Shown here piece by piece: positions 5,446 to 64,000 of a stretch of 64,000 nt of DNA. Under the pieces are notes generated by a model that did no database searches, was not told the origin of the DNA, and saw nothing but the letters and a program-made list of their open reading frames with translations. The position numbers and the translations under genes were made by a program. Origin of the DNA: Kiloniellaceae bacterium (GTDB lineage: Bacteria; Pseudomonadota; Alphaproteobacteria; Kiloniellales; J153); assembly GCA_021776115.1 (NCBI GenBank), contig JAJFGN010000024.1, positions 1 to 64,000 of the forward strand. The letters run 5' to 3'. The first letter of the stretch is position 1; every line of letters starts with the position of its first letter.

Positions 5446-5522
5446 CGGAGCGTGGCGCAGTCTGGTAGCGCACTTGGCTGGGGGCCAAGGGGTCGCAGGT
5501 TCGAATCCTGCCGCTCCGACCA
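5446..5522 (+). tRNA. tRNA-Pro, anticodon GGG
   Basis: A 77-nt cloverleaf with encoded CCA: acceptor stem CGGAGCG/CGCTCCG, D-arm GCGC...GCGC enclosing AGTCTGGTA, anticodon stem CTTGG/CCAAG with loop CTGGGGG (anticodon GGG), T-arm GCAGG-TTCGAAT-CCTGC, discriminator A and CCA at 5520-5522. All stems are fully paired. GGG reads CCC and CCU proline codons. Confidence 0.97.
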
Positions 5523-59434: not shown

Positions 59435-60733
59435 CTACTTTGTTGCCTGCTTGAGCGCCCGGTCGAGATCGCGCGTGATGTCGTCCAGGGTCTCCAGGCC
59501 GATCGACAAGCGGATCACGTCGGGCCCGGCGCCGGCGGCGCTGCGTTGGTCCTCGCTCAACTGCCGGTGAGTCGTGGAGGCCGGGTGCAGGATCAGCGAG
59601 CGGGCGTCGCCGATGTTGGCCAGGTGCGAGAACAGCTCGCAGGCCTCGACGACCTTGATGCCCATCTCAAAGCCGCCTTTGACGCCGAAGGTGAAGACCG
59701 AGCCGGCCCCCTTGGGCAGATACTTCTTCGCCAAGTCATGATAGGCGCTGGACTCGAGTCCGGCGTAGGAGACCCACTCGACCAGCTCGTGACTTTCCAG
59801 AAACCGCGCGACCGCGAGCGCGTTGGCGCAGTGCCGCTCCATGCGCAAGGACAAGGTCTCGATCCCCAGCAAGGTCTGGAAGGCGTTCATCGGCGCCATG
59901 GTCGCGCCCAGATCGCGCAAGCCCACGGCGTGCGCGTGCGTCGTATAGGCCATGTCGCCGAAGGATTCGGCGAAGCGCAGGCCGTGATAGGCCGGTTCCG
60001 GCGCCGCCAGGCTGGGGAACTTCTCGCTGCCGGCCCAATCGAAGGTGCCGCTATCGACCACGCAGCCGCCGGTCGAGGTGCCGTTGCCCGACAGGAACTT
60101 GGTCGTCGAGTGCACGATCAGGTCGGCGCCCCAGAGAAACGCCGGGCACAGGTAGGGCGTGGCCATGGTGTTGTCGACGATCAACGGGATACCGGCCTCG
60201 CGGGCGACGGCGGAGAGGGCTTCCAGGTCGCTGATCACGCCGCCGGGATTGGCCAGGCTCTCGACGAAGATGGCCTTGGTCTTGGGCGTGAGCGCCTTGC
60301 GCAGGTTCTCCGGCTCGTCGACATCGACGAAGCTGCAGCGCCAATCGAATTTCTTGAAGGTCTTGCCGAACTGGGTAATGGAGCCGCCGTACAGCCGGTT
60401 CGAGGCGATGAAATCGTCGCCCGGTTCCATCAAGGGAAACAGGGTCAAGATCTGCGCCGCGTGGCCCGAGGCGCAGGCGGTCGCGCCCCTGCCGCCCTCG
60501 AGACTGGCGATGCGCTCTTCCAGCGCCGCCACGGTGGGGTTGGTCAGGCGCGAATAGATGAAGCCGAAGGTCTGCAGGTTGAACAGCGACGCCGCGTGAT
60601 CGGTGTCGTGGAACACGTAAGACGTGTTCTGGTAAATCGGCGTCTGACGCGCCCCCGTTATCGGCTCCGGCTGGGTGCCGGCGTGGATCATGCGGGTCTC
60701 GAACCCGAAGCGTTCCTTACGGTCCTTGGTCAT
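59435..60733 (-). CDS. metY: O-acetylhomoserine aminocarboxypropyltransferase / sulfhydrylase
   Basis: A PLP enzyme that makes homocysteine from O-acetylhomoserine and sulfide (direct sulfhydrylation route of methionine synthesis), in the cytoplasm. The 432-residue protein has the Cys/Met-metabolism family signature 'HSTTKFLSGNGTSTGGCVVDSG', in which the Lys binds PLP, and 'GNPTVAALEERIASLEGG'-like start elements ('LTNPTVAALEERIASLEGG'). It overlaps the upstream CoA-binding gene by 4 nt. The operon is preceded by a long structured leader. Confidence 0.94.
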   Translation of the reverse strand: MTKDRKERFGFETRMIHAGTQPEPITGARQTPIYQNTSYVFHDTDHAASLFNLQTFGFIYSRLTNPTVAALEERIASLEGGRGATACASGHAAQILTLFPLMEPGDDFIASNRLYGGSITQFGKTFKKFDWRCSFVDVDEPENLRKALTPKTKAIFVESLANPGGVISDLEALSAVAREAGIPLIVDNTMATPYLCPAFLWGADLIVHSTTKFLSGNGTSTGGCVVDSGTFDWAGSEKFPSLAAPEPAYHGLRFAESFGDMAYTTHAHAVGLRDLGATMAPMNAFQTLLGIETLSLRMERHCANALAVARFLESHELVEWVSYAGLESSAYHDLAKKYLPKGAGSVFTFGVKGGFEMGIKVVEACELFSHLANIGDARSLILHPASTTHRQLSEDQRSAAGAGPDVIRLSIGLETLDDITRDLDRALKQATK

Positions 60734-61233
60734 GCGATGCGGGTCCGACGGCGCCTGCTGGTGATGATCCCGGTATTGAAGCCGCCCCAGGACAGCTCAT
60801 TGTGCAGGCGGCCGTATTCGATCTTCGGGCAGCGGTCCATGATCACTGTCAGGCCGGCGGCCTCCGCCCGCGCGGCGGCGGCATCGTCGCGCACGCCAAG
60901 CTGCATCCAAATTACACCAATGCGCTTGCTGTCTTTCAGCGCGATGGCCTCGTCCACGGTTTCGCCGGCCGCGTCGGAGGCGCGGAAGATATCGACCATG
61001 TCGATCGGGTCCGGCACCTCCGCCAGGGTGGCGCAACAGGTTTCGCCGAGGATGTCTTGACCGGCCGCGCGCGGATTGACCGGAATCACCCGGTAGCCCT
61101 TTTCTTGAAGATACTTCATGGCGAAATAGCTGGGCCGGTTCCATTTGGGGCTGGCGCCGACCATGGCGATGCTGCGCACCCCGGCCAGAATACCGCGCAA
61201 AAACTCGTCGTTGTAAAACAGGGGCTCGCTCAT
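60730..61233 (-). CDS. CoA-binding domain protein (YccU-like Rossmann fold)
   Basis: A 167-residue Rossmann-fold protein: 'SIAMVGASPKWNRPSYFAMKYLQEKGYRVIPVNP' and 'MVDIFRASDAAGETVDEAI' with 'VIWMQLGVRDD' are the CoA-binding (COG1832/YccU) signatures. No reaction is established for the family. Its last 4 nt overlap the start of metY (ATGA), so they are co-translated, which suggests a role in sulfur or methionine metabolism. I chose the ATG at 61233; the frame extends to 61338 without a good start. Confidence 0.9.
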   Translation of the reverse strand: MSEPLFYNDEFLRGILAGVRSIAMVGASPKWNRPSYFAMKYLQEKGYRVIPVNPRAAGQDILGETCCATLAEVPDPIDMVDIFRASDAAGETVDEAIALKDSKRIGVIWMQLGVRDDAAAARAEAAGLTVIMDRCPKIEYGRLHNELSWGGFNTGIITSRRRRTRIA

Positions 61234-61263
61234 TGGCAGGGGATCTCCGGGGTATTTAGCGAA

Positions 61264-61545
61264 GCATCCCGCAGATTGCGATGCAGGGAAAGCCCCTTGG
61301 CGGTTTGGCCTGGGCGCCACGTTGTAGGCGCCGCGCAAAACTCGCGTACGAGGTCGAAGTTAAGGCCTAATACACTGATTTTACGGGTGTATTTCTGCGT
61401 CTTTAGGTTAACCCGATGGCAATCACACCAGGTGGATAATGGAAGGGTCGCAGGTAATGCGACAGGCCCCGCGCGAATGGAACCCCCCGTCCATTGGCCA
61501 TCACTGGCCCTCCTCCCGCGAGCGCGCGGGGCCGCTTTTAGCGGC
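61264..61545 (-). ncRNA. Hairpin-rich leader region of the CoA-binding/metY operon
   Basis: Successive perfect hairpins are visible: GGCGCC-ACGTTGTA-GGCGCC (61313-61332), AATACAC-N11-GTGTATT (61369-61393), GTCGCA-GGTAA-TGCGAC (61447-61463), AATGGA-N8-TCCATT (61476-61495), GGCCA-TCAC-TGGCC (61496-61509), CCCGCG-AGCG-CGCGGG (61515-61530) and GCCGC-TTTTA-GCGGC (61531-61545). An 11-bp helix GGCCCCGCGCG/CGCGCGGGGCC (61465-61475 with 61523-61533) competes with the last two. The minus strand runs into metY; a 32-codon ORF (61403-61501) lies inside. I see no known riboswitch consensus. Confidence 0.5.
61403..61501 (-). CDS. Candidate small leader ORF with strong ribosome binding site
   Basis: A 32-codon ORF reading MANGRGVPFARGLSHYLRPF then HYPPGVIAIGLT. 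It is preceded on its strand by GGGAGGAGGG (61517-61508), a near-perfect Shine-Dalgarno match 7 nt from the ATG. The start codon lies in the GGCCA/TGGCC hairpin. It contains no second Met and no Cys codon. Its third-position GC is lower than in the neighbouring genes. Whether it is translated is unproven; the strong binding site is the main argument. Confidence 0.5.
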   Translation of the reverse strand: MANGRGVPFARGLSHYLRPFHYPPGVIAIGLT

Positions 61546-61559
61546 GACGGGGATTGGGG

Positions 61560-61670
61560 AACTAGAGGTCAAATATAACGCGTAGAATCAATATACTGCA
61601 TCTATATAGCAATTACTGTGTCAATAAGATGTTATAATATATTGATTTTACATAATAAAAATAAAAACTC
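61560..61670. other. AT-rich intergenic stretch
   Basis: Between the end of the leader and the stop of the enoyl-CoA hydratase gene lies about 110 nt of very AT-rich DNA with TTGACA (minus strand, near 61622-61617) and TATATT/TATATA motifs. No pair has clear 16-18-bp spacing, so I cannot assign a promoter, though it is the likely place for one serving the CoA-binding/metY operon. Confidence 0.5.
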
Positions 61671-62486
61671 TTATTCGTGACGCCACGTGGGTTTACGCTT
61701 GTCGATAAAGGCATCGATGCCTTCCTCGGCGTCGCGGAAGGTCATATTCCGGGCCATTTCCTCACTGGCGAAATCGTAGGCCGTCAGCAGTCCCATCTCG
61801 ACCTGCTTGTAGAAGGCGCGCGTGCCGGTCGCGATCGCGGCCGCCGATTTGGCCAGGATCGCATCTGCCAGTTCGGCGACGGCGGCGTCCAAGCCCCCGG
61901 CCGGGACGACCCGGTTGACCAGGCCGTAGGACAACGCCCGCTCCGCCGGAATAATGTCGCCGGTGAGCAGCATTTCCAGGGCGTGCTTGCGGTGCACGTT
62001 TCGGCTCAGCGCCACGCCCGGTGTCGTACAGAACAGGCCGGCTTTGATCCCAGAGGTGCCGAATTTGGCGTCCTCGGCGGCGACCGCCAGGTCGCAGTTG
62101 GCGACCAATTGGCAGCCCGCCGCCGTGGCGATGCCGTGGACCCTGGCGATCACCGGCTGGGGCAGGCGGGTCATGGAAACCATCATCCGGCTGCAGGTCT
62201 TGAACAGGGCCTCGTAGTACGCCCGGCTGGGGTTGGCTCGCATCTGCTTCAGGTCGTGGCCGGCGCAGAAGGCCTTGCCCGCCCCGGCCAAAACCACGAC
62301 CCGGACCGAGCGGTCGGCCGCGATCTCATCGAAGGCTTGCTGCAGGGCCGCCAGAAGCTCCTCCGACAGGGCGTTGTATTGCTTCGTGCGGTTCAGGGTC
62401 AGGGTCCGAACGCCGCCGGAATCCTGGCTTAGCAAGACGGGCTGCGCGGCGCTGTCGGTTTGGAGCTGCTGGATTTCCGCGCTCAT
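61671..62486 (-). CDS. Enoyl-CoA hydratase family protein
   Basis: A 271-residue crotonase-fold protein: the oxyanion-hole segments 'AFCAGHDLKQM' and 'NCDLAVAAEDAKFGTSGIKAGLFCTTPGVAL' are present. The latter lacks the usual Glu pair arrangement of classical hydratases, so the real reaction could be different (many crotonases carry out isomerase, hydrolase or decarboxylase chemistry). The C-terminus is 'KPTWRHE'. It is divergent from the thioesterase gene. No other beta-oxidation gene lies nearby. Confidence 0.88.
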   Translation of the reverse strand: MSAEIQQLQTDSAAQPVLLSQDSGGVRTLTLNRTKQYNALSEELLAALQQAFDEIAADRSVRVVVLAGAGKAFCAGHDLKQMRANPSRAYYEALFKTCSRMMVSMTRLPQPVIARVHGIATAAGCQLVANCDLAVAAEDAKFGTSGIKAGLFCTTPGVALSRNVHRKHALEMLLTGDIIPAERALSYGLVNRVVPAGGLDAAVAELADAILAKSAAAIATGTRAFYKQVEMGLLTAYDFASEEMARNMTFRDAEEGIDAFIDKRKPTWRHE

Positions 62487-62654: not shown

Positions 62655-63089
62655 TTGCCACGCATATCCAAAGCGGAAATCGACGACTTGTGCGCGGAGG
62701 CGCTGCCGTGGGTCGCCATCCTCGGCCTGGAGATCGAGGATATCGGCCAGGGCACCTGCCGGGTGCGCATGCCGGGCAAGGAAGAATTCCTGCGCCCCGG
62801 CGGCACGGTCAGCGGCCCGGCGCTCATGAGCCTGGCCGACTACGCCATGTATGTCGCCGTTCTCTCTGCGATCGGGCGGGTTGAGCTGGCGGTGACCATC
62901 AACCTGACCGCCAATTTCCTGCGCCGGCCCAAACCCGGCGCCATAATTGGCGATTGCCGCCTGATCAAATTGGGGAAGCGCCTAGCCTATGGCGAGGTCT
63001 CGCTCTTTTCGGAAGGGGAGGTGGATGCCGGCCCGGTCGCCCACGTCACCGCGACCTATTCCATTCCGCCTGAGCGGTCCGAGCCCTGA
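62655..63089 (+). CDS. PaaI family thioesterase (hotdog fold)
   Basis: A 144-residue hotdog-fold protein with the PaaI-type core 'RPGGTVSGPALMSLADYAMYVAVLS' and 'TINLTANFLRRPKPGAIIGDC'. These enzymes hydrolyse acyl-CoA thioesters in the cytoplasm. The start is a TTG at 62655 with a strong AGGAGAGG ribosome binding site 8-10 nt upstream; the first in-frame ATG would remove part of the fold. It is divergent from the enoyl-CoA hydratase gene and may act on the same acyl-CoA pathway; that is inference. Confidence 0.85.
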   Translation: MPRISKAEIDDLCAEALPWVAILGLEIEDIGQGTCRVRMPGKEEFLRPGGTVSGPALMSLADYAMYVAVLSAIGRVELAVTINLTANFLRRPKPGAIIGDCRLIKLGKRLAYGEVSLFSEGEVDAGPVAHVTATYSIPPERSEP

Positions 63090-63418: not shown

Positions 63419-64000
63419 GTGTCGAAGAAGAGCTTGGGTTTTGCCGCCGTCGTATTGGCAACGCTTGCCGCCGCCTCTCCGGCGAATGCACTACTGTTCG
63501 ATCAAAACGTGACTAACAATGTGATCTTCGGCTCCGGCAATACGAACGGCGCCTTCACGGTAGATCGCAGTTTCGGGGTCGAGCTCGGTTTGCGCGCCAA
63601 GCTGCGCTTCGACGCGGCCGGCCAGCCGCAGAACACTTTCAACAGCAACGGCGACGGGACCTACACTTTTAGCGCTGGCCAAGCCGTGGGCGGTTTTTCC
63701 GCGGCAACGCCGGTTTGGAACTTCGAGTGGTCCATCAATTCGAATTATAACGGCACGTCTCCGTGGGCGCTCAACGGTTTGAGCTATGTGATCGCAATCG
63801 ATTTCGATCCTGGCGCCGGCACGAATTTCCTGACTTTCGATCCGATCAACGTGACTGCAGCCGATCACTCGATCGGCGACAATTCAACGGCCGAGGGCGC
63901 GGGTGTCGAGGCGGCGAATGCGGCCGAATATGCCGCCCTTGTCGGTGCCAATAACTTGGCCCAGAACTCCTGGAATATGGATTTCTTCAATGATGGGGCA
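63419..64000 (+). CDS. Secreted protein, N-terminal part, PEP-CTERM-like (truncated by window)
   Basis: The first 194 codons of an exported protein. It starts GTG with an AGGGGG ribosome binding site 7 nt upstream and has a signal peptide (about residues 1-25, ending 'SPANA'). The mature part is Asn/Gly/Thr-rich and beta-like ('DQNVTNNVIFGSGNTNGAF', 'FDAAGQPQNTF'), a composition typical of PEP-CTERM or VPLPA-CTERM extracellular proteins. The C-terminal sorting signal would be beyond the window, so this assignment is a guess from composition and start. Confidence 0.6.
   Translation, partial: MSKKSLGFAAVVLATLAAASPANALLFDQNVTNNVIFGSGNTNGAFTVDRSFGVELGLRAKLRFDAAGQPQNTFNSNGDGTYTFSAGQAVGGFSAATPVWNFEWSINSNYNGTSPWALNGLSYVIAIDFDPGAGTNFLTFDPINVTAADHSIGDNSTAEGAGVEAANAAEYAALVGANNLAQNSWNMDFFNDGA

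Follow-up and report, generated by a model that had tools for sequence, protein, structure and literature searches.

Accessible C-rich loops are described as a common pairing site of the small RNAs (sRNAs) of the Alphaproteobacteria. According to the cited account of NfeR1, ribosome-binding sites in related bacteria are the pairing partners of loops that are C-rich or carry CCUCCUCCC, and NfeR1 itself silences ntrB by means of CCUCCUCCC loops (PMC10746234). NfeR1 of Sinorhizobium and CcsR of Rhodobacter belong to the alpha-r14/cuckoo RNAs, the NfeR1 type being described as having three hairpins whose loops all carry the motif. The alpha-r8 RNAs (MmgR, SisA-D) are described with a CCUCC-type anti-Shine-Dalgarno stretch, with a single-stranded UUUCCUCCCU and with a location that usually adjoins an N-formylglutamate amidohydrolase gene, and CrfA of Caulobacter is described in the same source as an sRNA sponge of CCUCC-bearing sRNAs (PMC12559287). 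PmaR of Agrobacterium is described as highly conserved and confined to few species, with a C-rich loop that is accessible (PMC6234868). Among the riboswitches of methionine metabolism, SAM-II is described as preceding metA and metZ in Sinorhizobium (PMC9373788). Furthermore, CtrA-activated promoters are described with TTAA-N7-TTAA or TTAACCAT near -35, and the CtrA promoters of R. sphaeroides with an invariant A at -11 and with G seen at -4 (PMC6180460).

No study of Kiloniellaceae sRNAs surfaced in the literature, among the matches listed. The window discussed here is a stretch of 64,000 nt of DNA from a Kiloniellaceae bacterium, in which the first-pass annotation had described positions 61264-61545 as a hairpin-rich leader, possibly an attenuator or riboswitch, of a CoA-binding/metY operon, with an sRNA on the opposite strand as a second possibility. 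This paper describes the conserved element at this site, its probable nature and its relation to the systems named above.

Conserved Block and Its Borders

The RNA was compared in seven sequences, namely the window and six relatives, all of them Kiloniellaceae; the named records of the six relatives are metagenome-assembled genomes. The alignment delimits a conserved block with sharp borders at about 61399 and 61533, which comprises a promoter-like region (61402..61446, + strand) and a structured RNA gene of 89 nt (61447..61535, + strand) that was recognized by conservation, covariance model and fold z. The RNA (61447-61533) is 85-95% identical between the window and the six relatives and the promoter part 51-82%, while both neighbouring genes are 73-85% identical to the window and the flanking DNA 25-53%. 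Taken in 15-nt bins, mean column identity is 0.75-0.97 for the bins that span 61444-61533 and 0.83 where the bin covers an upstream GGTTAACC box; the two bins that separate this box from the RNA have 0.48-0.56, and those outside the block 0.19-0.45. In the alignment of the RNA, 69 of the 89 columns are listed as invariant. The sequences differ by 1- and 2-nt gaps within the block, so that a small protein or other coding gene was ruled out in all six frames. On the strength of this comparison, an RNA gene with these borders and with the fold given below is well supported.

The conserved block covers only a part of the hairpin-rich stretch. The abundance of hairpins noted at first is real, since 61264-61545 contains 10 perfectly paired stems of 5 bp or more (loops of 3-20 nt), 6 of which have at least 6 bp. 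Dinucleotide shuffles of the stretch have on average 5.2 stems of 5 bp and 1.4 stems of 6 bp, and they reach 10 of the former in 13 of 300 cases and 6 of the latter in 1 of 300. However, the stem count is by itself unremarkable for this GC-rich window, because other 282-nt pieces of it have 6.4 stems on average and 30 of 217 reach 10; the whole 282 nt, moreover, folds only somewhat better than shuffles (z of -1.40 on the + strand and -2.07 on the - strand). Conservation of the helices in relatives, which had been proposed as a check, is found for 61447-61533 but not for the hairpins at 61298-61319, 61313-61332 and 61369-61393, which in the alignment with the six relatives are complete in the window only. 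Hairpin 61531-61545 keeps 5/6 pairs in G003 and 0-3/6 in the other relatives, and hairpin 61264-61284 keeps 4/5 and 5/5 pairs in two relatives of the same genus and 0-3/5 elsewhere. About half of the stretch (61264-61401) is intergenic DNA with conservation limited to the genus. Judged from the alignment, the hairpins of 61264-61545 are real but are not a single element.

In addition, a second block of genus-level conservation (61243-61300, 81-83% identical to G001 and G003) lies just upstream of the CoA-binding gene and contains hairpin 61264-61284; it would represent either the real leader of that gene or an extension of its N-terminus. In unrelated genomes, weak and scattered matches arise to the A/T-rich stretch 61597-61670, which separates the RNA from the hydratase stop; they are a matter of composition, not of homology.

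Fold and Strand of the RNA

The fold on the + strand begins with hairpin P1 (61447..61463), which has 5/5 pairs in 7/7 sequences with one U-G change. It is followed by helix P2, the 5' arm of which (61465..61475) pairs with the 3' arm (61523..61533) by 11/11 pairs in all seven. P2 encloses hairpin P3 (61476..61495), fully paired in 7/7 and bearing an invariant loop of six C (61483-61488), hairpin P4 (61496..61509), with 4/4 pairs in 7/7 (G-U in two), and the short stem-loop P5 (61510..61522), which overlaps the CCTCCTCCC motif, forms in 7/7 and has 3 pairs, none of which varies. P2 is the 11-bp long-range helix of the first-pass annotation and its pairing is exact; within 100 nt, 0/200 shuffles reach 11 bp, yet 8/217 other pieces of the window do.

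Two changes are seen in P2, one compensatory (C-G to U-A) and one from C-G to U-G, and the compensatory change is common to two species of one genus. The covariation score is reached by 16/500 shuffles, the two-sided pair count by 261/500 and the number of pair types by 500/500. Covarying pairs had been suggested as the support to look for, and one such pair is present in P2, but the covariation evidence is thin, consisting of this one compensatory pair in seven related sequences. Two other hairpins (61515-61530 and 61531-61545) do overlap the 11-bp helix, and it was on this overlap that the idea of alternative structures was founded. Hairpin 61515-61530 is kept in 7/7 sequences and never varies, which argues neither for it nor against it, and the compensatory change of P2 sits in its loop; the evidence favours P2 over this hairpin, and a switch between both may be possible.

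With regard to the strand, fold z on the + strand is -2.96 to -5.19 in 7/7 sequences, and on the - strand it is -0.38 to -3.08, being weak in G001, G004 and G007. In the window and in G003, most shuffles fold less well than the - strand, and in G005 and G008 the - strand energy is equal to or slightly lower than that of the + strand, so energy alone cannot settle the strand. In the alignment, 4 pairs show a total of seven G-U cells, which are paired on the + strand and would be A-C mismatches on the - strand, and no cell shows the reverse. The + strand orientation of the RNA has good support from these substitutions and from the fold statistics.

Comparison with Known RNA Families

Rfam 15, searched with the window at 61150-61750 and E up to 10, gave one match (E 5.9), at chance level and outside the RNA, and the six relatives gave two (E 0.79 and 4.7), both outside the RNA. 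The first-pass annotation had recognized no known riboswitch class, and this agrees with the absence of any Rfam match in the element; a riboswitch or other known family is ruled out by Rfam and by the strand. 6S RNA is ruled out too, its gene sitting elsewhere (it was found over the cut-off and away from the RNA in 8/9 family genomes, the own copy being on contig C49), as is a tRNA or tmRNA, the sole tRNA being at 5446 and none at the RNA. The metY-type gene nearby recalls SAM-II and other methionine riboswitches; unlike these, the RNA lies on the strand opposite to the metY-type gene and has no Rfam match.

The anti-Shine-Dalgarno motif reported at 61509-61517 is indeed present there as CCTCCTCCC on the + strand; it is exact in only 5/7 sequences, with CCTCAACCC in G004 and G007. 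At the RNA level, CCUCCUCCC is exact in 5/7, where it is only partly unpaired, and G004 and G007 have CCUCAACCC. The P3 loop has the same six C in all seven sequences, and their computed probability of being unpaired is at least 0.7 and mostly 0.9.

The RNA resembles the alpha-r14/cuckoo RNAs in being alphaproteobacterial, in having CCUCCUCCC in 5/7 sequences and in its open C-rich loop, and a conserved upstream box is described for NfeR1 too. In contrast to the three motif-bearing loops of the NfeR1 type, however, it has one partly paired copy of the motif, lost in 2/7, while its invariant loop is the six-C one, and it forms one branched junction and not hairpins in a row. The DUF1127 gene found at CcsR/CIN1 loci was not seen beside the RNA, whose neighbours are the hydratase, CoA-binding, metY and thioesterase genes. 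A CCUCC-type stretch is shared with alpha-r8, but the UUUCCUCCCU core is absent from the seven aligned sequences and an N-formylglutamate amidohydrolase gene was not seen beside the RNA. With PmaR the RNA has in common the accessible C-rich loop, the narrow distribution and the high conservation, and it is set apart by the description of PmaR as a spoon-like single stem with a large loop, as against the multi-hairpin junction here. By analogy, the RNA most likely works like the alpha-r14/cuckoo and alpha-r8 RNAs and belongs to none of these families.

Promoter-Like Region and a Possible Link to CtrA

A -10-like hexamer, GATAAT (61435..61440, + strand), has its second-position A and last-position T in 7/7 sequences. 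In the alignment the spacing between this hexamer and the start of P1 is exactly 6 nt in all seven, which makes the first P1 base the natural +1. With +1 at 61447, the GGTTAACC box (61406..61413, + strand), invariant in 7/7, is at -41 to -34, and together with GCAA at 61419-61422 it is a possible activator (CtrA-like) site. The combined pattern GGTTAACC-N2-AT-N-GCAA is exact at 7/7 RNA loci (-41 to -25), and in the nine genomes it occurs exactly at one other place (G008 C118) and with one mismatch at seven further places, a reversed control pattern giving two matches. When the spacing to the -10 hexamer is added, the pattern is exact at the RNA in G000, G001 and G003 and once elsewhere (G048), leaving out the other four RNA loci. 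A -35 consensus or sigma-70 promoter match is absent at the RNA gene. An intrinsic terminator match is absent there as well, no U-run follows P2, and the conservation of the sequence ends where P2 ends.

All seven RNA loci have TTAA-N7-GCAA at -39 to -25. Like the CtrA-activated promoters, the promoter region of the RNA has the first TTAA half and the A at -11; unlike them, it has GCAA in place of the second TTAA, and a G at -4 is not conserved. The own genome encodes CtrA (427 bits, cut-off 350), and the region upstream of ctrA has two GGTTAA without a full site. Control of the RNA gene by CtrA is a plausible guess. The transcription start, the regulator and the 3' end given here are predicted.

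Locus Layout and Distribution

The RNA gene is flanked by genes of the - strand only. Divergent from it is the CoA-binding protein gene (60730..61233, - strand, PF13380), followed by the operon's second gene, a metY-type gene (O-acetylhomoserine aminocarboxypropyltransferase, 59435..60733, - strand, NF004650 above cut-off), and convergent with it is the enoyl-CoA hydratase gene (61671..62486, - strand, PF00378 and NF006008). The hydratase gene is the convergent neighbour in 7/7 loci, its aligned end lying 78-298 nt beyond the end of the RNA, and the order hydratase, RNA, CoA-binding gene is kept in 6/7, the distance from RNA to operon differing between loci. In G001 alone, a cyclase-domain gene (PF00211; L009:1-1218) separates the RNA from the CoA-binding gene. 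Farther along the window, an open reading frame with a signal-peptide-like start (63419-64000) continues past the window end; Pfam and NCBIfam gave no match for it.

The covariance model found the RNA in 7/61 genomes of the order, all seven inside the Kiloniellaceae (9 genomes) and with one match each, and the same seven were recovered by searching for the P3 hairpin as a pattern in which up to 3 mismatches were allowed. No match was obtained in the remaining two family members, G002 (89% complete) and G006 (59% complete), in which the hydratase and CoA-binding genes were not found either. Model R1 found none in the 52 order genomes outside the family (E 0.01, strict filters); laxer filters on 23 of these 52 gave only chance-level matches (E 0.40 and 0.50), 289 genomes of the class, the own one included, gave two (E 0.66 and 0.81), chance-like when aligned, and 23 sister-family loci with filters off gave 55 weak matches, the best of 16.5 bits. 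The whole-genome searches scored only part of the first-look candidates, by which remote members could escape. When 143 related genomes, the own one among them, were searched at the DNA level, 13 matched at E 0.01, only 7 of these (own included) in the RNA and the others in A/T-rich or other parts of the query. A repeat or mobile element was ruled out, as the own genome gave no second copy (next best match 34.6 bits vs 789) and searches of plasmids, phages and viral contigs found no relative of the RNA. In G005, contig C50 (L022:1-300) starts inside a copy of the element and bears a second hydratase gene; this contig may be a duplicate or an assembly variant.

In sister families the gap between the hydratase and CoA-binding genes (aligned ends) is 23-62 nt in 10/23 loci, 568 nt in 1/23 and about 1.2-1.3 kb in 6/23, and in 6/23 the hydratase gene was not seen within the locus. 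From this tight spacing, the RNA probably arose between the two genes within the Kiloniellaceae.

Putative Function and Alternative Explanations

The RNA is probably a small regulatory RNA. The sRNA opposite to the operon, which had been the second thought of the first-pass annotation, is backed by the conservation, by the strand-specific pairs and by the promoter-like region at a fixed distance. The best explanation, to which a probability of about 60% is given, is a + strand gene for a trans-acting sRNA with a six-C loop antisense to G-rich ribosome-binding sites. The gene would have the convergent hydratase gene on one side and the divergent CoA-binding/metY operon on the other, and would extend from 61447 to about 61535. 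RNA polymerase would start at the first base of P1, using the -10 hexamer, and the GGTTAACC box, bound by an activator for which CtrA is the best guess, would replace a recognizable -35. The transcript would fold into P1 and then into a junction closed by the 11-bp P2 and enclosing P3, P4 and P5, and the 3' end would be made by trimming back to P2, as suggested by the lack of a U-run after it. The exposed six-C loop of P3 would pair in trans with G-rich ribosome-binding sites and block translation of target mRNAs, aided in most species by the CCUCC stretch. By analogy with loops of the NfeR1 and PmaR type, such antisense pairing is the most likely action of the RNA.

A + strand structured RNA without antisense pairing, whose six-C loop and junction bind a protein or a small ligand or which titrates another RNA, is a less probable alternative. 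It would account for the near-invariance of the entire RNA and not of the loop alone (85-95% identity, 69/89 columns), and for a junction closed by an 11-bp helix, which exceeds what pairing requires; the sponge CrfA would be a precedent. However, C-rich accessible loops commonly serve for pairing in alphaproteobacterial sRNAs, and for cis switching the next annotated-looking + strand gene downstream, at 62655, is too far. A more speculative and doubtful proposal is a new Kiloniellaceae class of RNA under CtrA cell-cycle control, in which a compact junction with the invariant six-C loop would serve as a sponge or as the binding site of a protein or ligand, the RNA then not being a further anti-Shine-Dalgarno sRNA, and in which the conserved hairpin 61515-61530 would be a second state.

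The constant convergent hydratase gene, 78-298 nt from the RNA end in 7/7 loci, could suggest a cis-antisense RNA or a transcription-collision element for the hydratase mRNA. This is improbable, as antisense overlap requires no conserved fold, yet the RNA shows conservation of both fold and sequence, and the 61 columns that separate it from the hydratase gene, where identity is 25-53%, do not.

The first proposal, in which the element serves the CoA-binding/metY operon as a leader, attenuator or riboswitch, is very unlikely. It could draw on the position of the element 5' of the operon in 6/7 loci, on the two overlapping structures (hairpin 61515-61530 and P2) that are both kept in 7/7, and on the - strand fold, which surpasses that of most shuffles in two sequences (the window and G003). 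An operon leader, however, would need to be read on the - strand, the strand of the operon, and the conserved RNA reads on the +; the G-U changes disrupt the - strand pairs, and the - strand z is weak in three sequences. Moreover, in G001 the operon starts 2.3 kb off, behind the intervening cyclase-domain gene, and the RNA still adjoins the hydratase gene. The variable distance to the operon, the lack of an Rfam match and the 10/23 sister-family loci whose short gap leaves the operon without a leader also argue against it. Finally, a DNA element such as protein-binding palindromes or a mobile repeat is hardly credible, even though GGTTAACC is palindromic and GC-rich inverted repeats are common in the window, because the G-U wobble and compensatory changes fit RNA only, and neither a second copy in the own genome nor plasmid, phage or viral relatives were found.

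Biological Meaning

The site is re-read as an independent RNA gene instead of a riboswitch, and with it an RNA family of 89 nt is defined, with a covariance model and in seven species. It is most likely a new sRNA family, with G-rich ribosome-binding sites as its pairing partners and CtrA perhaps as its regulator. As a lineage-specific RNA gene at a place where sister families have a tight hydratase/CoA-binding pair, it is a tractable case of a young and strongly constrained RNA. To our knowledge, a tie between CtrA and a small RNA is unexplored in the order Kiloniellales; if the link to CtrA is true, the RNA would be a small RNA tied to the alphaproteobacterial CtrA system in this order.
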